This document shows positions 2,222 through 10,854 of a stretch of 64,000 nucleotides of DNA, piece after piece (within the stretch, counting starts at the first letter, position 1; each line of letters opens with the position of its first letter). The stretch comes from an uncultured Bacteroidales bacterium. GTDB taxonomy: Bacteria; Bacteroidota; Bacteroidia; Bacteroidales; Paludibacteraceae. The stretch is taken from positions 53,433 through 117,432 of the forward strand of contig CACZOA010000050.1 in NCBI GenBank assembly GCA_902782665.1, in the 5' to 3' direction. The notes beneath the pieces were generated by a model, which saw only the letters and a list, made by a program, of their open reading frames with translations, searched no databases and was not told the DNA's origin. The translations under genes and the position numbers were made by a program.

Positions 2222-2255
2222 AAAAAACATCGTGATTACCAACACGGTAACCACG
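2222..2255 (-). terminator. Intrinsic terminator of the ATP-grasp/AstE operon
   Basis: Read on the minus strand, CGTGGTTACC pairs with GGTAATCACG around GTGTT (one mismatch), followed by ATG and a run of six T. It lies between the end of the five-gene operon and the FKBP gene. Confidence 0.75.
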
Positions 2256-2328
2256 ACGCAAGAAATAGCAATGAAATGTCATCAATGAACTATTTATATG
2301 TGCTTATTTACCAGCACACAACTGGAAA

Positions 2329-3267
2329 TTAAGGGGTATCTTTTACTTCAATTATTCTAAATATTATAGTGTCCTCCAACACCAACGGACGGTAGTGAGC
2401 AAAGAACACAATACCTTTGCATGGGGATAAAATCTCATCAAGCGTATCTCCGTTGTATGGATCTATTATTCTCGCCAACAAATCTCCTTTTTCCACAGCA
2501 TGGTTCGCAGAAACAAGTTTTGTATATATTCCAGCCTTCTTGCTCCGCACCACAACATGGTTGTCATCTGTGACAATTTCTGAAACATACCCATGTCGTT
2601 GCAAATCATTAACGATCCTTTTACTGTTCATGAATCTGAAAATAGCATGAATAGTTTCCTCCGCCAAATCAGTATTAAGCTGATTAGTAAGGCCCGAATA
2701 GATCGAAAAAGCAAAAGTGTTCCAGATCTGCCAGTTATAGTTGAGCATTGTGCTATCATAAGGACGCGGTTTTCTCACATAAATGTAAGGTAGTTCAAAA
2801 AACCTGGCATCCGCTGTGTCCTGATAACCTGTATCCAACATCCTCACATGAGGTACAAACTCTCCAGGCATGTAAAAACTTGCCAACTGTATTCCGTATG
2901 TATAGTTTTTCAATGTATCAAACAATGCAGCCGCAATTCTTTGTGTGGTCTCACCCTTGTCGTAGCCAGGAAACATACGGTTGATATCCGTGTTGTCCAT
3001 CGACCAGAATCTCTTTTCAAGGTTCATTGAAAACGGGTTGGCATTTGGAATCACAAGAATTTTACACCCTTTGTCAATCCTACCATCCTTCTCAATCTTG
3101 ATCAACCTTTTTACAATCTGAGCACAGACATATTGCTGTTGTATCTCGTCGCCACGCATTGCTCCTATAATGGCAACTGTCTTTTCTCCATCTCCAAACT
3201 CATATCCTGTTATTCGAAATTCGTCTCTATAAGGAGAACTCATTCTGTATATTATCTTCTTTTCCAT
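2329..3267 (-). CDS. AstE/AspA-family (M14-like) protein lacking catalytic residues
   Basis: A 312-aa homologue of succinylglutamate desuccinylase/aspartoacylase (AstE_AspA family), paralogous to the adjacent gene. The family frame is kept: NPF (77-79), the DINRMFPG segment (94-101) and the C-terminal barrel-like domain (about 230-312, KKAGIYTKLVSANHAVEKGD onward). The expected HGDE zinc motif reads RGDE (R38), the DIHAS motif reads IQLAS (L128), and the catalytic Glu aligns with Tyr190. It is therefore predicted to be inactive as a zinc hydrolase and may bind substrate or pair with its active paralogue. Only 3 bases separate it from that gene. It is the last gene of the operon. Confidence 0.8.
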   Translation of the reverse strand: MEKKIIYRMSSPYRDEFRITGYEFGDGEKTVAIIGAMRGDEIQQQYVCAQIVKRLIKIEKDGRIDKGCKILVIPNANPFSMNLEKRFWSMDNTDINRMFPGYDKGETTQRIAAALFDTLKNYTYGIQLASFYMPGEFVPHVRMLDTGYQDTADARFFELPYIYVRKPRPYDSTMLNYNWQIWNTFAFSIYSGLTNQLNTDLAEETIHAIFRFMNSKRIVNDLQRHGYVSEIVTDDNHVVVRSKKAGIYTKLVSANHAVEKGDLLARIIDPYNGDTLDEILSPCKGIVFFAHYRPLVLEDTIIFRIIEVKDTP

Positions 3268-3270
3268 ATG

Positions 3271-4197
3271 TCAGTTCTTTTTGAATATTCGCGCCATCAA
3301 CGAACCTTCGTAAACGATCGGATATGCACGTAAAGTAAACACAAGTCCATCAGATGGGCTGACCACCGTCTCCAACACCTTTCCTTCAAGAGCACTCACT
3401 ATTTTTCCTATCTCTTCTCCTTTTTTCATCCATTGATTATTATCAATCGACGGAATGAATATTCCGGAACATCCGGCATTAAGGAACTCTACCTCTCCCT
3501 GTGTGCTAACAAATTGTTCTTTGGACTCGACATCAACGTCGCCTTTATAAAATCCAAGAGATTTGAGAAGCTGAAGAATTCCGTTCATAAGTTCCACTCC
3601 ATAATGTCTTGTTATCCTCATACCGACACCCATTTCCACTACCAGACAAGGAGTGCCAGCAGAGTTGAGAGAATGAGCAAGCGTGCTTTCAAGCACAGTG
3701 GCAGCCTCATGAATCCATATAAAATCAACATTGAGTTCCTTCCCGTATGGCACAAGTAAATCGGCATTTTTCACATTTATTCTTACCTGCGGAATCTCTC
3801 TTAGAAAAATGTTCGACGCATGGATATCTATCACCATTTCCGCGCCAAGCAGATCATTGTAGATTGCATTAGCTGCAGTCTCAGCCATCGCTCCACGTGG
3901 ATCTCCCGGGAAGATTCTGTTCATGTCAAGATCAAAATTTGGGATGCCACGTGTAATACTGTCAATTCCAAGTGGGTTTAACGCAGGATAAATATCAATC
4001 TCACCATCCACCTCGTCTATATGTTCCTGCAAAAACTGAGACAGGAGAAAACATACATACTGTCCCTCCAATTCATCTCCATGTGTTCCTGTGACAATGC
4101 AGAATCGTTTTTCACTTTTGCCACCCTTGATTATGTTCTTCTTTATTGTCAGACGTTCGTCTATGGGCAATTCAGAAGAGAAAACCTCCTTAATCAT
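3271..4197 (-). CDS. Succinylglutamate desuccinylase/aspartoacylase family zinc hydrolase
   Basis: A 308-aa AstE_AspA-type metal-dependent amidohydrolase of the M14-like carboxypeptidase fold. Zinc ligands and catalytic residues are all visible: H39 and E42 in THGDE, H126 in DIHAS, E188 in VVEMG, plus NP at 74-75 and DMNRIFPG at 91-98. The C-terminal part (about 225-308) is the beta-barrel domain seen in this family. Family members cleave N-acyl amino acid amides, but the substrate here is unknown. It sits 14 bases below the transglutaminase gene and 3 bases above a degenerate copy of itself. Context suggests trimming or hydrolysis of an amide product made by the operon's ATP-grasp enzyme. 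Confidence 0.88.
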   Translation of the reverse strand: MIKEVFSSELPIDERLTIKKNIIKGGKSEKRFCIVTGTHGDELEGQYVCFLLSQFLQEHIDEVDGEIDIYPALNPLGIDSITRGIPNFDLDMNRIFPGDPRGAMAETAANAIYNDLLGAEMVIDIHASNIFLREIPQVRINVKNADLLVPYGKELNVDFIWIHEAATVLESTLAHSLNSAGTPCLVVEMGVGMRITRHYGVELMNGILQLLKSLGFYKGDVDVESKEQFVSTQGEVEFLNAGCSGIFIPSIDNNQWMKKGEEIGKIVSALEGKVLETVVSPSDGLVFTLRAYPIVYEGSLMARIFKKN

Positions 4198-4211
4198 TTT
4201 TTATACCTCCT

Positions 4212-4982
4212 CTATATTTCAGCCATTGTGATATGTACAAGTTTATGTTGTGCGCCAGATCCGACAAACACACCTCTTTCCATTGTGCAGTCGTTGAAAT
4301 CCCGACCCTGAGCTATTTTTAGGTAATCACTTTCTATAAGCAGTTTACGAGTCGGATCGATTGCGTACCATATTCCGTTATCGTTAACCTCAATCCACGC
4401 ATGACTCTCTCCCTCACCAGGTATGAATCCAGAGATGTACCTGCAAGCGATCCCCTTGCTTCTAAGAATAGCTAAGATGACGTTGGAAAAATCCTGGCAT
4501 ACCCCTTTCCCCTGCGTGAATGCCTCTATGGCAGATGTCTTTATAGTGGTGGAGCAAGATTCATACTTCATTCTCTCATGAAGAGCGTCAATAAGAGAAA
4601 GAGTATCTTTGACTATGTTGTTTTCAAACGAACAGACTTCATCGGCAAATCTGACCATTTCATCATTGGCTTCAGTCAATAATGTAGGAAGACGGAAAAT
4701 ATAGTTAGACTCTTCTACGATAAGATGTTGTGACAACAAAACTATACCTCTTGATGCAAAAGTGAACGACTTGTGTGGCTCACAAGTGTTTCCATAAATA
4801 AGTTCATTTCCAAAGACATCCGTCGACCTCATTATATTCTTGCACGGAGACACAGAGAAATCCTCTTCTTCTATTTCTTGGAATCCGCACTTGTATGGCA
4901 AACATCGAAGCTTAAAATGGTGATCCGAAACCTTACTGTCGAAGGTAATGCTTGTCTGGTATGTAAATTGATAACGTTTCAT
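4212..4982 (-). CDS. Transglutaminase-like cysteine enzyme of the ATP-grasp/alpha-E operon
   Basis: A 256-aa protein with an N-terminal beta domain (about 1-95, resembling the bacterial transglutaminase N-terminal region) and a transglutaminase/papain-like core. The catalytic triad is readable: C162 in GKGVCQDFSN, H194 in GESHAWIEV and D209 in YAIDPTRK. No signal peptide is present, so it is cytoplasmic. Bacterial relatives are mostly predicted peptidases or amidases rather than crosslinkers. It is regularly found with alpha-E and circularly permuted ATP-grasp genes, as here. Its substrate is unknown. Confidence 0.9.
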   Translation of the reverse strand: MKRYQFTYQTSITFDSKVSDHHFKLRCLPYKCGFQEIEEEDFSVSPCKNIMRSTDVFGNELIYGNTCEPHKSFTFASRGIVLLSQHLIVEESNYIFRLPTLLTEANDEMVRFADEVCSFENNIVKDTLSLIDALHERMKYESCSTTIKTSAIEAFTQGKGVCQDFSNVILAILRSKGIACRYISGFIPGEGESHAWIEVNDNGIWYAIDPTRKLLIESDYLKIAQGRDFNDCTMERGVFVGSGAQHKLVHITMAEI

Positions 4983-5079
4983 CGCCGATTTCTTTTAAAA
5001 ACACAGAGAGGAAACTGTTTTGCCCGAAAACAACACCTGTCTGTGCATTAGGATATGATATGAATAGGATATTTAGCAA

Positions 5080-5775
5080 TCAATTCGTGCTTACTATCGA
5101 GTTGAGCAGAGAAAGCAACCTGTTCTTATAAAAAGACTCGTGACTATATTCTTTTGCTGTAAGCATCTTGTCGATCTGCTCGACTGCCTCAACATCATAA
5201 ATATAAGGCACATATCTCAAATGAGTCTTTAATCTTTCATAAAGCAACTCAACCCTGTCGAATGGATAATCAAACCTCACACGGATATCAATTTGCTCAA
5301 TCATCTTTCCTGCCATCAGGATAGCCAAAGCATAATCGTTGAGAACTCTCTCCTCGATCGACCCCCACATTGAAAGCAGTTTATCCGTAATAGGCTGAAG
5401 CTCAGTGATATGAGTCTCATTGCTTTTAGCTAAAGAATTGATGTGAGCTAAAGACATCTGAATGTATCCAAGCGTCTCTGACGTGATCTCCTCACGCAAC
5501 ACCATCGCATTATCGTTGGCAAATTCAAGTTCGGCAGAGATGCTGAACGGATTCTGTTTGTCATAAAGAAAACTCTTCACAAAATTTGAAGACGAGTTGA
5601 AATCCGCATCCAGACTGAGATTGTCGCAATACTCATTGTATGCGTCACTGTCACCATCTATCATCTTGTCGTAGCAAGCACGAAGAAAGTGAAGGTTGAG
5701 ATAAGTTCGTTCTGCGTATCGACCAAGCCAAAATAGTTTGTTAGCCTTTGCTGCAGATATAGTTTTTGCGTTCAT
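5080..5775 (-). CDS. Alpha-E domain protein (DUF403 type), short form
   Basis: A 231-aa, almost entirely helical protein starting with the family hallmark AAKANKLFWLGRYAERTYLN. This matches the alpha-E domain, which is nearly always encoded beside circularly permuted ATP-grasp and transglutaminase-like genes. It is shorter than the roughly 300-residue form I know from proteobacteria, with the difference mainly in the middle. No catalytic motif is seen; a scaffold or carrier role has been suggested for the family. It is 79 bases downstream of the ATP-grasp gene and 97 bases upstream of the transglutaminase gene, all on one strand. Confidence 0.85.
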   Translation of the reverse strand: MNAKTISAAKANKLFWLGRYAERTYLNLHFLRACYDKMIDGDSDAYNEYCDNLSLDADFNSSSNFVKSFLYDKQNPFSISAELEFANDNAMVLREEITSETLGYIQMSLAHINSLAKSNETHITELQPITDKLLSMWGSIEERVLNDYALAILMAGKMIEQIDIRVRFDYPFDRVELLYERLKTHLRYVPYIYDVEAVEQIDKMLTAKEYSHESFYKNRLLSLLNSIVSTN

Positions 5776-5854
5776 GATTATATATTTAGTTCGTAGATGT
5801 GATTAATAATAACTAGGAGCATACCAAGCACTCAGACCCAGATCAACTCCCATT

Positions 5855-7171
5855 TTATTCTTCCATTACCCAAGTGTCCTTGAATCCACCACCCTGAGAA
5901 GAGTTTACGACAAATGAGTTCGGATTTCGTGAGAAACGAGTAAGGCCACTTTTCCATACCTTCGTCTCCTTACCAGTAAGAACAAAAGCTCTCAAATCAG
6001 CCTTTCTTTCGACATATTTCCCGTCTTCGATGATTTCAAGATCCTTAAAGTCTATCACCTCCTGAGCAATCCATCTTCGTGGTTCATTGTCTACAAGATC
6101 ATACATTTCTTTCAAGTGCGACTCGTCCAAATCCCTGCCAAACACCACTCCATATCCACCAGCCTCGCTCACATCCTTGATCACAAGACTGCTGAGGTTT
6201 TCTAGCACATACTTCTTATCTTCCTCAAAATAAGGCAAATAAGTCGGCGCATTTTTAAGGATTGGTTCTTCACCAAGATAATACTTGATCATTTTAGGTA
6301 CGAAATAATAGATGCCCTTGTCATCAGCGACGCCATTGCCGATTCCATTTACGATTGCCACATTCCCCTTCGCATAGATCTGCATTATGTTTGGCACACC
6401 CAGCATAGAAGATTCCTCAAAAGTAAGTGGATCCATATATTCGTCAGAAACTCTACGATATACAGCACCAACTCTTTCTTTGTTGCCAGATATATCCTTG
6501 TAGAAAACCATATCATCCTCAACAATCAGATCACCAGGATATGCGAGCACCGCACCAGACTTTTCTGCCAGATAAGAATGTTCAAAGAAAGCAGAGTTAT
6601 ATCTTCCTGGTGTAAGGATGACATTGATTCCACGACCATCATTGACATAATCCATCGTCTCCTTGAGCAATTCCGAATAATTACGGTTGTCTGCCACATG
6701 ATTGTTGGCAAATGTCTCCGGGCTCACTTTCCTTGTGATGTTTCTTGCAATCATAGGATAAGAAGCTCCCGACGGGATTCTTAAGTTGTCTTCCAAGATG
6801 TACCACGTGCCATCTTTTGCCTGAACCAAATCAATACCAGCAATATGTGCAAAGATTCCTTTTGCTGGGGTAATACCTTCACACTCAACAAAATAACCTT
6901 TTGAAGAATAAACAAACTCAGCAGGAATGATTCCGTCTTTCACAATCTTCTTCTCTTTGTAAATATCTCGAAGAAAAGCGTTAAGTGCATCAGATCTCTG
7001 AATAAGTCCTTTTTCCAAAACAGTCCATTCGTCATGAGAGATTACGCGTGGCACTGAGTCAAATGGGAACAACTGTTCGTTGAATACCCCGTGTTTGTAG
7101 ATCCCAAACTTGACACCAAATCTCTCCATCCATAAGTTGACGGCATCCTTGTGTTTGATAAGTGTCTCCAT
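5855..7171 (-). CDS. Circularly permuted ATP-grasp amide ligase
   Basis: A 438-aa cytoplasmic protein of the circularly permuted ATP-grasp type 2 group. Diagnostic segments include DGTWYILEDNLRIPSGASYP (about 119-138), NVILTPGRYNSAFFEH, AIVNGIGNGVADDKG (P-loop-side segment), LVIKDVSEAGGYGVVFG (nucleotide-binding hairpin), ADLRAFVLTG and the C-terminal NSSQGGGFKDTWV. ATP-grasp enzymes activate a carboxylate as acyl phosphate and join it to an amine or thiol. This subfamily is predicted, not proven, to make amide bonds on a peptide or small metabolite. It is the first gene of the operon, with a consensus promoter about 50 bases upstream. Confidence 0.92.
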   Translation of the reverse strand: METLIKHKDAVNLWMERFGVKFGIYKHGVFNEQLFPFDSVPRVISHDEWTVLEKGLIQRSDALNAFLRDIYKEKKIVKDGIIPAEFVYSSKGYFVECEGITPAKGIFAHIAGIDLVQAKDGTWYILEDNLRIPSGASYPMIARNITRKVSPETFANNHVADNRNYSELLKETMDYVNDGRGINVILTPGRYNSAFFEHSYLAEKSGAVLAYPGDLIVEDDMVFYKDISGNKERVGAVYRRVSDEYMDPLTFEESSMLGVPNIMQIYAKGNVAIVNGIGNGVADDKGIYYFVPKMIKYYLGEEPILKNAPTYLPYFEEDKKYVLENLSSLVIKDVSEAGGYGVVFGRDLDESHLKEMYDLVDNEPRRWIAQEVIDFKDLEIIEDGKYVERKADLRAFVLTGKETKVWKSGLTRFSRNPNSFVVNSSQGGGFKDTWVMEE

Positions 7172-7222: not shown

Positions 7223-7253
7223 CAAAGGTAAAAAAGGATTTGTATTTCACAAA
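7223..7253 (-). promoter_or_regulatory. Promoter of the ATP-grasp/alpha-E/transglutaminase/AstE operon
   Basis: On the minus strand TACCTTTG (7223-7230) is a perfect -7 box and TTTG (7250-7253) a perfect -33 box, separated by 19 bases. It faces the ATP-grasp gene that starts at 7171. Confidence 0.75.
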
Positions 7254-7481
7254 CAAAATGTTACATTTTTTAAAAAATTTCTTTCATTGTGCTAACAAAA
7301 ACAAAATTTAAATTATCATTATGTTTTAAATATCGTCTTTTTGCTCACTTTATGCACATTTGTGCATAATATGGAATTTATAGTTGACAAGAAGATAAAT
7401 ACTATATCCAGTTTTCTCCTTATTTTTTATTTTTTTTATTTGCAGACGATTGAAATAATTTACATCTTAACAATATTTAGT
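7254..7481. other. AT-rich divergent spacer
   Basis: A very T-rich stretch (long T and A runs around 7265-7280 and 7420-7440) between the divergent ATP-grasp operon and the barrel gene. A rightward frame is open from 7341 with an ATG at 7371, but it encodes only an AT-driven hydrophobic lead. No hairpin or second promoter could be established. Confidence 0.5.
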
Positions 7482-8180
7482 GTGAAAAAGATTATTGTAT
7501 TCCTTACGCTGCTTTTTTGTGCGACGTCGCTTCTAGCAAAAGGATATAGTGGAGCGAAAAAATTCAGAGAGTTCTACAACCCTGAGACAAAGCATGAAAT
7601 CGGTGTCGGCATTGGTTGGATGACCTTCACAAATTTATTGAACTATCCAGGCTGGGGTTGTGATGATGATTATACTCCCATTGATAAAAAATATTCTTAT
7701 ACTCCTGCCTACAATGTTCATTACTACTATAAACTACATAGAAGGGTGAAATTAGGTATGGACATCACATGGCAGAAGAATAAAACTAACTCTGTTTTTT
7801 CGACAGATATATTCAACGCGAATGTTGATCATTTTACCCAGAAGCATGATGAAGAAATGCTTGAAGGATATATGAAGAAATATGATTCATGGCAAAAAGA
7901 GTGTGGCACAACCACTTACAACCATCTGATATTCGCACCACAAGTGAAACTCACATGGTTAAGCAGAGAACATTTCGCTATTTACCAGCGTTATGGCATA
8001 GGTTTAGACTTAGAATTTTCTAAAAATCCGATCGAGGGAAAAGACACAAGGGCTTGTCCTACACCATGTGCAGCACTTCTTGGATTAGAATTCGGAGGCG
8101 GAAAATTTAGAGGGTACTTTGAAACATTGGAGCTTAGTGCACAAGGTTTGTTCCACGGTGGAATAAAATTTGATTTTTAA
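7482..8180 (+). CDS. Predicted outer-membrane beta-barrel protein
   Basis: The 232-aa form starts at GTG 7482 with a typical signal peptide, VKKIIVFLTLLFCATSLLAK, then a mature domain of alternating hydrophobic and aromatic strands (HEIGVGIGWMTFTN, AYNVHYYYKLHRRVKLGMDI, FAIYQRYGIGLDLEF, CAALLGLEFGGG). It ends on a terminal phenylalanine (GGIKFDF), the usual barrel-insertion signal. ATGs further upstream (7341, 7371) would put about 40 extra residues before the signal peptide and are less likely. Its function is unknown. Its stop overlaps the stop of the convergent MATE gene by 4 bases. Confidence 0.65.
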   Translation: MKKIIVFLTLLFCATSLLAKGYSGAKKFREFYNPETKHEIGVGIGWMTFTNLLNYPGWGCDDDYTPIDKKYSYTPAYNVHYYYKLHRRVKLGMDITWQKNKTNSVFSTDIFNANVDHFTQKHDEEMLEGYMKKYDSWQKECGTTTYNHLIFAPQVKLTWLSREHFAIYQRYGIGLDLEFSKNPIEGKDTRACPTPCAALLGLEFGGGKFRGYFETLELSAQGLFHGGIKFDF

Positions 8181-9466
8181 ACCGTTGCATTTTTGTAATA
8201 CACCACCGTCTGATACAAACCTCGCGTCGCGGCATAAGACAGGAATGCTATCCACAAGACATCCGAACCAAATGTTTCTGACATCGTGTTGTAGATGGTG
8301 AAGAAGACTGTGGCAGCCAACAACAAAGAGATGCTCATGTGCTTCGACATCAGTTTGCCGACGTAGATTCCATCCCATAAAAACGCAGCAAACGACATTA
8401 TAGGTATCAACATCGCATATAATCTCAATTCTTTTGACGTCTCTCTCACCGCGACGTCATCAGTGAGCAATGATACAATCGGTGTCAACCCCACTCCATA
8501 TATGACAGCGAATGTTATAGCCATCGCAATACCAATATTGAATAATCTCTGTATGGTGCGACGTTGCTCTTCCATCTGACGCGCTCCCTCCGTCTTTCCT
8601 ACTATCGCCTCTCCAGCAAACGCGAATCCGTCCATAAAATAGGAGAAGAAAGTGAAAAACTGCATTATACAGGCGTTGACTGCCAACACTAACTCTCCGT
8701 AACTGCTTCCAAACAGCGTGAAGCAGACTGTCACCGCAATCATACAGAGGTTGCGGACAAAAATAAGAGAATTGACTTTGAAGAAACTGAATATTCCGTC
8801 GAAAGGATGACTAAAATCGGCGTATTGACCGATTTTTTTATATGATGACATATAAATATATGCACAAAAAGCAGCACCTAAATATTGAGCCACAACCGTA
8901 CCGAAAGCTATACCCTCAATACCCATTCCGAAGGCAAAGACAAAAAACGCGCTCAACACTACGTTAAGCATATTCTCACCTACTGCAATATACATCGTCG
9001 ATTTCGTGTTCTGCATTCCCACCAACCAGCCTTTGAATGTGTAGGTGGCGAGCGACGCTGGAGCTCCCAAAAGACAAATGTTAATATAGCGGGACGTGAG
9101 TTCCTCCGTCTCCACGGATGCCTCCGAATATCTCAACACCAACTCAATGATCAGATTCTTAATCAGCAGAATCGCTACCGCACCTATCATAGCTATAACG
9201 AGAGCACGTACCAACACCTGACAACACACTCCAAGTTTTCGGGCACCTAAAGCCTGAGCCGTAAGTGCTGTGGTGCTCATACGAAGGAAGCCGAAATTCC
9301 AATAAAGAAGACTGATCATCGCAGCGCCAAGACTGACGGCTGCGATGTATGGAGCGGCACCAATATGGCCAGCTATAGCCATATCAGCAAACCCCAACAA
9401 TGGGACACTGATGTTGGTGGCGATGCTTGGGAAAGCTATTTTGAAGATTTTCTTGTAATTAGACAT
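8177..9466 (-). CDS. MATE family multidrug efflux transporter
   Basis: A 429-aa inner-membrane protein with about 12 hydrophobic helices in two homologous halves. It begins YKKIFKIAFPSIATNISVPL, the standard first helix of the MATE family, with GFADMAIAGHIGAAPYIAA following. Helix 7 carries the usual ACIMQFFTFFSYFMDGFAFA. MATE proteins expel cationic drugs and metabolites using proton or sodium gradients; it most resembles the DinF-like branch. The gene overlaps the end of the upstream symporter gene by 31 bases, so the two are probably translationally coupled. Confidence 0.92.
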   Translation of the reverse strand: MSNYKKIFKIAFPSIATNISVPLLGFADMAIAGHIGAAPYIAAVSLGAAMISLLYWNFGFLRMSTTALTAQALGARKLGVCCQVLVRALVIAMIGAVAILLIKNLIIELVLRYSEASVETEELTSRYINICLLGAPASLATYTFKGWLVGMQNTKSTMYIAVGENMLNVVLSAFFVFAFGMGIEGIAFGTVVAQYLGAAFCAYIYMSSYKKIGQYADFSHPFDGIFSFFKVNSLIFVRNLCMIAVTVCFTLFGSSYGELVLAVNACIMQFFTFFSYFMDGFAFAGEAIVGKTEGARQMEEQRRTIQRLFNIGIAMAITFAVIYGVGLTPIVSLLTDDVAVRETSKELRLYAMLIPIMSFAAFLWDGIYVGKLMSKHMSISLLLAATVFFTIYNTMSETFGSDVLWIAFLSYAATRGLYQTVVYYKNATV

Positions 9467-10854
9467 AATCCGAACATTGTGAAAAGAGCACCTAATATCA
9501 AAATTTCATAACCGAATGTATACCCTTTTTCCGCAGATAATTTATCAATCATCCACATTACTACAGGTGTAAGCATACAGATTATCGGCGTCAGCTTATC
9601 TGATATTTCTCGTTTTGTGAATATTCCGAATGCGAACATTCCCAATATAGGTGCCATAAAATACGACACGATAACATATATAATATTCAGTGCAGAACTC
9701 TGAGCCTGAATATGGAATTGCCAAATCACCGTAACAAGCAACAGAGAAAGTAAACCATGAATCATGTAACGTTGCTTACGTGATACCTTGGATAAATCCT
9801 TTCGCAACACATCCGTAAGCAGACATGTAGTCATGCCTACAAGTGCTGAATCAGCAGAAGAAAATGATGCTGCTATCATACCGAGTGTAAGGCAGCAAAT
9901 AGCGACGTCGCCAAAGTTATCACAGAACAAAGGGACGATTTCATCACTTTTTTCAGGCAAAGTCAATCCTTGTGCATTAGCAAGGTAGACGAGAGCCACT
10001 CCCAAGATAAGAAGCATCAAATTGACGGGAGTGAACAAAAAACCCGTAACTATCATATTTTTCTGTGCATCCTTCAAGTTTCGACAAGTAAGGTTTTTCT
10101 GCATCACATCCTGATCCAATCCCGTCATCACAACGACAATGAATATGCCGGAAAGAAATTGTTTAATGAAATGAGTACGATTAGAAATGGATTCAAAGTC
10201 AAAAGTCTTAGATAGTCCCTGAGTCGACGCATATTCAAAAACATCGGTGAAATTGCCATTTACAGCAGAAAAAGCCTCAACAAGAAGGACAATCGTCACT
10301 ATAATCAAGCAAGCAGTCTGTATACAATCGGTTAGGACAACACTTTTAACTCCATTACGGAATGTGTATGCGAAAATGACACCCACCACTATCAATGTCG
10401 CTATTTCAAAACTTATTCCATACTTTTCAAATATGAAGCGATGCAACACCAGCATCACAACATATAGTTTGACAGCCGACGACAACATCTTATTGATAAG
10501 GAACAATGCAGAAACCGTCTGTCTGCTTTTCACACCGAACCTATTTTCAAGATAACTGTAGATAGATATGGATCCCAACTTATAATATAACGGCAAGAGG
10601 AAAAAAGCCACCACCATGTATCCTAAAATGAATCCAAGCACCATCTGCATGTAGAAGAAGGAATTGCCTATAACCATTCCAGGTACACTTACCAATGAGA
10701 TACCAGATATGGTAGCACCCACCATACCAAAAGCCACAGCCGGCCAAGAAGAGTTCTTGCCGGCTGTGAAAAAATCTACGTCGTTTGAAGTCTTTTTTCT
10801 GTTGGAAACCACAAACAACAATATGACATAAAGGACAATGCAAATCTCTTGCAT
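9436..10854 (-). CDS. Sodium:solute symporter family transporter
   Basis: A 472-aa inner-membrane protein with about 13 helices. Family segments include the early FFTAGKNSSWPAVAFGMVGA and SGISLVSVPGMV (first sodium-site helix), and YSYLENRFGVKSRQT, characteristic of the SSS family. It lies between yidC (28 bases) and the MATE gene (overlapping), all leftward, so it is probably part of one transcript. The substrate cannot be inferred. Confidence 0.92.
   Translation of the reverse strand: MQEICIVLYVILLFVVSNRKKTSNDVDFFTAGKNSSWPAVAFGMVGATISGISLVSVPGMVIGNSFFYMQMVLGFILGYMVVAFFLLPLYYKLGSISIYSYLENRFGVKSRQTVSALFLINKMLSSAVKLYVVMLVLHRFIFEKYGISFEIATLIVVGVIFAYTFRNGVKSVVLTDCIQTACLIIVTIVLLVEAFSAVNGNFTDVFEYASTQGLSKTFDFESISNRTHFIKQFLSGIFIVVVMTGLDQDVMQKNLTCRNLKDAQKNMIVTGFLFTPVNLMLLILGVALVYLANAQGLTLPEKSDEIVPLFCDNFGDVAICCLTLGMIAASFSSADSALVGMTTCLLTDVLRKDLSKVSRKQRYMIHGLLSLLLVTVIWQFHIQAQSSALNIIYVIVSYFMAPILGMFAFGIFTKREISDKLTPIICMLTPVVMWMIDKLSAEKGYTFGYEILILGALFTMFGLCLITRKSSK

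Follow-up and report, generated by a model that had tools for sequence, protein, structure and literature searches.

Enzymes of the ATP-grasp type join a carboxylate and an amine by way of an acyl phosphate. Operons in which a circularly permuted ATP-grasp ligase is accompanied by an alpha-E helical protein, a transglutaminase-like (TG) thiol enzyme and the Ntn-fold protein Anbu reportedly have their founding paper in Iyer et al. 2009. DoeB, aspartoacylase and CphZ hydrolyse amides that adjoin a carboxylate, and in the AstE/AspA family to which such hydrolases are compared here an Asn-Arg pair binds the substrate carboxylate. In this study, we analyzed a 64,000-nucleotide stretch of DNA (the window) from an uncultured Bacteroidales bacterium (contig CACZOA010000050.1 of GenBank assembly GCA_902782665.1), in which the ATP-grasp, alpha-E and TG genes are followed by two genes of the AstE/AspA type, AstA and AstB, the second of which has lost its zinc site.

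The closest described system is the Anbu operon. The window operon shares with it the three core families and their order, and its TG gene is followed by one for a hydrolase, an arrangement also described in the available portion of PMC6376114 and present in three Bacteroidales genomes. It differs in possessing AstA and the zinc-less AstB instead of Anbu, an alpha-E protein shorter by about 75-125 residues and an ATP-grasp protein of a separate clade. Release of phosphate from ATP was observed with the ATP-grasp protein encoded in an Anbu operon of Yersinia (PMC6376114, in the part available), and according to the accessible sections of two Anbu papers from 2017, the physiological substrates of Anbu and of its operon are yet to be found (PMC5666114, PMC6376114). 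The three core genes, with Anbu as their partner, are thus an already known system. A literature search yielded no paper that we recognised on the AstA-AstB pair, on the exclusion of Anbu in Bacteroidales or on a link of the operon to a transporter; the founding paper lay outside the reach of this search and may mention AstE neighbours.

Conservation of the operon and of the AstA-AstB pair

Of 335 confirmed relatives, the 80 with the best matches were compared, and the labels used for loci (Lnnn) and genomes (Gnnn) are those of this analysis. All five genes, in one order and on one strand, were present at 73 of the 80 loci, and the other seven (L043, L048, L060, L064, L067, L089 and L112) begin within the operon at a contig end. 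Among the 73, the ATP-grasp gene is cut by the contig end in L075, L088, L095 and L102. The operons come from Bacteroidales records of gut, rumen, sediment and other origins, among them the cultured commensals Bacteroides ilei Marseille-P3208 (L096) and Prevotella sp. P5-92 (L091), and the genes flanking them vary widely between loci. Among 295 evenly drawn genomes of Bacteroidales, strong AstB matches (E below 1e-30) were found in seven, and the seven strong ATP-grasp matches fell in the identical seven; in G293 the operon is broken over two contigs. The operon occurred in none of the three genomes of the same family as the window genome in this draw and in two of the five genomes of the family of G078. 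Its distribution is patchy, but all-or-nothing wherever it was seen. The original prediction had staked itself on a linkage of the AstE-type genes to ATP-grasp and alpha-E in related genomes, and this linkage, the part of its refutation test that was run, was found.

Two of the 80 loci carry labels from outside Bacteroidales (L105, Fibrobacterales; L114, Desulfovibrionaceae, on a contig of 5.4 kb), possibly as a result of mis-binning. The AstB profile matched 105 genomes in a draw of 395 Bacteroidota genomes that included few Bacteroidales, but the best match after the window genome (4.9e-162) reached 2.9e-23, and by the look of the scores these other matches are ordinary AstE relatives; an occurrence of AstB outside Bacteroidales was thus rejected. 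Spread by plasmids was likewise rejected, as the protein search with AstB gave just nine distant plasmid relatives of 22-28% identity. Two loci show local irregularities. In Bacteroides mediterraneensis An793 (L079:6203-7518) the ATP-grasp gene appears as two ORFs, through a sequencing error or a true break, and in L105 AstA and AstB are separated by a gene (8818-9984) whose product has the domains DUF1016_N and YhcG PDDEXK nuclease.

AstA and AstB share 23% identity over 289 columns. A quick tree that also held 23 further AstE-type proteins from Bacteroidota placed the two as sisters (SH-aLRT 96), but on long branches, so that they probably, though not demonstrably, arose by duplication within the operon. 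The AstA residues H39, E42, H126 and E188, representing the zinc HxxE, the distal His and the catalytic Glu, are kept in all lettered rows (77-79 of 79), and AstA is predicted to be a zinc enzyme. In AstB, the first zinc His is replaced by R38 in 80 of 80 homologues and the second by A129 in 79 of 80 (Pro in one), and in a joint alignment of 81 rows, the window sequence included, the place of the catalytic Glu (Y190) holds Tyr in 78 and Phe in three. Judged by its zinc ligands and catalytic Glu, AstB is therefore not an active AstE/AspA member. The Glu of the HxxE motif (E41) and the pair N96-R97 are kept in 80 of 80, and Q127, S130, Y132, H140 and N176-Y177-N178-W179-Q180 are polar residues invariant in 43 sequences.

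The dN/dS values of AstB and AstA were 0.043 and 0.058 against L042, and 0.021 and 0.031 against L044, where dS is above 1 and the values are rough; a third pair, besides these two close ones, was saturated. The AlphaFold model of AstB has an AstE-like fold (pLDDT 85.9) and matched CphZ, 3cdx and DoeB in Foldseek at E below 1e-18, with CphZ (8ein, 8eip) first by E-value, 3na6 and DoeB slightly higher in TM-score, and M14 carboxypeptidases as a weaker fold match. Since the zinc site is lost, the AstE-like fold kept and dN/dS low, as expected under purifying selection, AstB is a conserved pseudoenzyme; a decaying pseudogene is ruled out by dN/dS and the invariant columns. Of the two AstE-type hydrolase homologues originally announced, both are of the AstE/AspA type, but the pair consists of one predicted active enzyme and one pseudoenzyme.

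Among solved structures, the nearest sequences to AstA are 2qj8 and 3cdx, followed by DoeB, an N-acetyl-diaminobutyrate deacetylase (6twl, 6twm). AstA differs from DoeB in gene context, and the NCBIfam model for DoeB, whose cut-off is 402.7 bits, gave it a score of 51.5 (E 7.1e-14). CphZ, the cyanophycin dipeptide hydrolase of the AstE/AspA family, gave weak and partial sequence matches to the AstA and AstB profiles; it has other ligase partners than AstB, in which the metal site is lost. Activation by an inactive paralogue has precedents, in the portions available, in the trypanosome prozyme and in metallopeptidase pseudoenzymes (PMC5201418, PMC11266112), with which AstA and AstB share the pairing of a predicted active with an inactive protein.

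The ATP-grasp protein matched PDB entry 3n6x at E 3.5e-126 with a profile of seven sequences, and its core residues are invariant among the relatives. Of the traits of Anbu operons, the window operon has the circularly permuted ATP-grasp (PF14403), an alpha-E protein that scores over the cut-off and covers just profile positions 6-163 of 294, and a TG with Cys, His and Asp (Cys162 in 76 of 77 rows, with one gap; His194 and Asp209 in 77 of 77). The predicted structure of alpha-E is all-helical (pLDDT 91.7); a fold search against the PDB gave nothing at E 0.001 or better, so its role is one that we infer. A short alpha-E and a system of the ATP-grasp/alpha-E/transglutaminase amidoligase type had been proposed from the window sequence; the type is supported by these results, and the short alpha-E was borne out by lengths of 218-232 aa in the 73 loci, compared with 308-356 aa in 19 regions from other Bacteroidota.

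Relation to Anbu operons and to nitrogen

Alpha-E was detected in 143 of the 395 Bacteroidota genomes. Twenty alpha-E regions were read, of which eight had been picked for a proteasome-family match beside alpha-E, and six of these eight have the order ATP-grasp, alpha-E, Anbu, TG; one Anbu was checked by name against the PDB Anbu entries. In L171 the TG match lies in a separate ORF of 967 aa, and one or more core genes are absent from the stretch read in L180, L183 and L184. L166 (G484:C14) has alpha-E, Anbu and TG together and no ATP-grasp gene in the 12 kb read, and its genome carries, on another contig, an 866-aa frame matching alpha-E. Of 43 genomes from outside Bacteroidales that have alpha-E, 16 also had AstA-like proteins; in the 15 genomes with both places listed, these were on other contigs than alpha-E or at least 29 kb apart.

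Three Bacteroidales genomes with a distant ATP-grasp match (G243, G197 and G282) have the order ATP-grasp, long alpha-E, TG and Anbu last, and none of them gave an AstB profile match; the fourth distant match (G118) is a fragment. Conversely, Pfam recognised no Anbu among the five genes of the window operon, and PF00227, a model that detects Anbu weakly, had no match in the seven AstB genomes, the window genome included, two of them being 88-89% complete. AstA-AstB and Anbu are mutually exclusive in the 295-genome Bacteroidales draw, with seven genomes against three. As Anbu is last in these three operons, AstA-AstB occupies the Anbu position in this order, and we read the AstA-AstB operon as a variant of the Anbu operon.

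An ammonium transporter gene was found in the flanks of 13 of the 80 loci, at 14 places in several arrangements, two copies being confirmed as PF00909; 66 of the 80 loci had a flank of more than 3 kb on at least one side. By a rough estimate from the density of such genes in the window genome, one would be expected in about 1% of stretches of 20 kb, although related loci inflate the count of 13. At six loci the transporter lies directly upstream on the same strand, at 24-71 bp. A -7-type motif is present upstream of the transporter in five of these six and in the gap between transporter and operon in none, as if the transporter headed the operon there. The absence of a transporter, part of the original prediction, is true of the operon in the window, but not of those relatives in which an ammonium transporter directly adjoins it. 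A link to nitrogen, including induction by nitrogen shortage in Proteobacteria, has been recorded elsewhere, as far as the available parts of the papers go: the ATP-grasp/alpha-E/TG cluster of Burkholderia cenocepacia is NtrC-dependent, with loss of ntrC lowering it about 6- to 9-fold (PMC5491218), Anbu of Pseudomonas putida was up under nitrogen limitation and unchanged in various other conditions (PMC5666114), and in marine metagenomes the same domains cluster with urea metabolism (PMC3597751).

Layout and surroundings of the operon in the window

The window genome is a draft of 3.33 Mb in 114 contigs, 87.7% complete. In the locus search the best named match was the metagenome-assembled genome Bacteroidales bacterium SIG116, and several near relatives are labelled Paludibacteraceae. 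The features of the operon are listed in Table 1.

Table 1. Features of the AstA-AstB operon, in positions of the window
Feature	Position	Strand	Basis
Bacteroidetes sigma-type promoter TTTG-N19-TACCTTTG	7223..7253	-	motif scan, exact position
Circularly permuted ATP-grasp ligase, 438 aa	5855..7171	-	Pfam CP_ATPgrasp_2 PF14403, E 4.9e-138
Short alpha-E helical protein, 231 aa	5080..5775	-	Pfam Alpha-E PF04168, E 5.1e-21
Transglutaminase-like (TG) thiol enzyme, 256 aa	4212..4982	-	Transglut_core, E 3.3e-17; Bact_transglu_N, E 4.4e-12
AstA, AstE/AspA-type zinc amidohydrolase (predicted), site intact	3271..4197	-	Pfam AstE_AspA_cat, E 1.2e-20
AstB, AstE/AspA-type pseudoenzyme	2329..3267	-	Pfam AstE_AspA_cat, E 4.1e-10
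Intrinsic terminator	2227..2259	-	hairpin folding

The five consecutive leftward genes, the promoter and the terminator that had been read from the letters were all confirmed. The genes are minus-strand ORFs from 7171 to 2329, transcribed in the order ATP-grasp, alpha-E, TG, AstA and AstB, with gaps calculated from the ORF coordinates of 79, 97, 14 and 3 nt. The promoter was recovered at its exact position and ends 51 nt before the ATG of the ATP-grasp gene. Its motif has the form known for Bacteroidetes. In the 250 nt preceding the first gene of the relatives, TAnnTTTG occurred in 54 of 67 against 10.6 expected, and the full motif with a spacer of 18-22 in 17 of 67 against 0.3 expected, the expectations being taken from single-base shuffle controls. 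The terminator hairpin is real, with a stem of 14 pairs and a T tail (-20.8 kcal/mol, z -6.0); a consensus scan by itself, with 5 sites where 4.5 were expected, would have missed it. None of the five proteins has a signal-like hydrophobic N-terminal stretch when read by eye, in agreement with the lack of a secretion signal claimed before.

Past the terminator, the next gene downstream encodes an FKBP-type isomerase, which follows the operon on the same strand only in the six nearest loci (L039-L044). A divergent ORF (7341-8180, plus strand) starts 169 nt from the first gene of the operon and encodes a hydrophobic N-terminal stretch; neither Pfam nor NCBIfam assigned it to a family at E 1, and its counterpart (cluster c16) was found only in L039-L042. 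Elsewhere, 2-oxoacid:ferredoxin oxidoreductase-type genes lie downstream of AstB in L078, L082, L085, L089, L110, L112 and L115, which are mostly labelled Prevotella or Prevotellaceae (two proteins were checked by domain). A class I glutamine amidotransferase gene stands directly after AstB in L073, L076, L107 and L111, the copy of L111 being confirmed as PF00117.

Proposed amide cycle and its alternatives

We propose, with a confidence that we put at about even, that the five genes are the Bacteroidales form of the ATP-grasp/alpha-E/TG amidoligase operon, by which an amide is made and split for nitrogen handling in the cytoplasm, with AstB as partner of AstA and the pair doing the job of Anbu. 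The ATP-grasp protein, aided by alpha-E, would activate a carboxylate with ATP and join it to an amine, and the TG cysteine enzyme would transfer or open the acyl or amide bond of the product. AstA would cleave the amide, beside a carboxylate, back to its parts. AstB would be its partner subunit, in which the Asn-Arg pair and the invariant polar residues may hold the substrate carboxylate, or which may shape or switch AstA. The cycle would store or recover cytoplasmic nitrogen as an isopeptide-like amide, with AstA-AstB performing what Anbu performs in Anbu-containing operons. All chemical steps are those that we infer. A precedent for an Ntn-fold Anbu and an AstE-type AstA sharing one job is provided by isoaspartyl dipeptides, as in cyanophycin breakdown, which according to the available part of PMC10206079 are split by the Ntn-family IaaA, the zinc metallopeptidase IadA and AstE/AspA-annotated enzymes; CphZ is likewise an AstE/AspA-annotated enzyme that splits an isopeptide of stored nitrogen (same source, same portion).

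Several observations weigh against this proposal. Nine of the 20 regions from other Bacteroidota (L173-L179, L181 and L182) share the three core genes and their order with the window operon, but have a long alpha-E and neither AstA/AstB nor an adjoining Anbu, so the core genes can do without a linked hydrolase (the L181 genome has an Anbu-size match on another contig). Where Anbu is present in these regions, it is not the last gene but stands next to alpha-E or between it and TG, and of 13 Anbu-size matches in 50 genomes searched just eight were beside an alpha-E match. The TG tree unites the AstA-AstB form with the Anbu-last operons at a support of 90/75, below the mark of the program, whereas in the ATP-grasp and alpha-E trees the AstA-AstB form is a clade on its own long branch; because the three trees disagree or lack support, our claim is one of shared position and does not extend to descent from such operons. 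In Yersinia, the proteins of the Anbu operon made no specific contacts with one another in pull-downs, and three substrates of the proteasome were all left uncleaved by Anbu (both from the accessible text of PMC6376114). As to nitrogen, no transporter lies within the stretch examined at 67 of the 80 loci, the two ammonium transporters in the 3.3 Mb of the window genome are both on other contigs, and a literature search for nitrogen control of the operon in Bacteroidales found nothing. The cyanophycin synthetase model TIGR02068 had 16 partial matches in the window genome at its stated completeness, none over the cut-off; cyanophycin is thus an unlikely product in this genome, which sets it apart from the setting of CphZ.

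The alternatives differ in what they make of the pair. A cycle of protein or peptide tagging, as already proposed for the Anbu operon in the portion of PMC6376114 available, would have ATP-grasp and TG add an amino acid or peptide to proteins, AstA remove it in the manner of an M14 carboxypeptidase and AstB recognise the tagged protein. The fold match of the AstB model to M14 carboxypeptidases fits such a cycle, though it is the weaker one; the solved sequence relatives whose names state a substrate, DoeB, aspartoacylase and CphZ, act by their names or titles, and by what is generally held of them, on small N-acyl or beta-aspartyl compounds, and an ORF listing starting at 60 aa showed no tag peptide gene between the five genes. 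We consider tagging unlikely. That AstA-AstB is a nutrient deacylase similar to DoeB or to succinylglutamate desuccinylase, with ligase genes making an unrelated product under shared control, would suit the rank of the DoeB structures and the DoeB model among the matches of AstA. The score of that model far below its cut-off argues against it, as does the fact that AstB without the ligase genes was seen in none of the 80 loci having enough sequence; nor were ectoine- or arginine-breakdown genes recognised among the neighbour clusters of at least three loci, which were named by eye and some of them checked. This makes a nutrient deacylase improbable.

AstB could also be an enzyme with a step of its own, carried out in an active site that is new and either lacks a metal or is built in another way. 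The many invariant polar residues would be expected of one, but kept ligand-binding residues account for the same pattern and no known catalytic motif was recognised, and we hold an enzymatic AstB to be quite improbable. That the five genes are adjacent by chance, or through shared transcription only, is opposed by the 73 five-gene loci and the widely differing flanks; chance is refuted by those loci and by the identity of the seven genomes with ATP-grasp and AstB, and we give this reading practically no credence.

The amide cycle may be taken one step further, tentatively and with more doubt than confidence. AstA-AstB would then be a functional stand-in for Anbu, and Anbu an amide (isopeptide) hydrolase of the product of its operon, not a protein degrader; the whole class would be a nitrogen-storage or nitrogen-recovery amide cycle, whose hydrolase in the Bacteroidales form would be divided between two proteins, a zinc enzyme and a subunit that is a pseudoenzyme. 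The AstA-AstB operon adds a strictly paired set of active and inactive enzymes in Bacteroidales. With a well-studied zinc amidohydrolase family in the position of Anbu, the question becomes a chemical one, namely which amide AstA splits and whether Anbu splits the same. If the stand-in holds true, Anbu, the supposed ancestor of the proteasome, would be the amide hydrolase of the product of its own operon.

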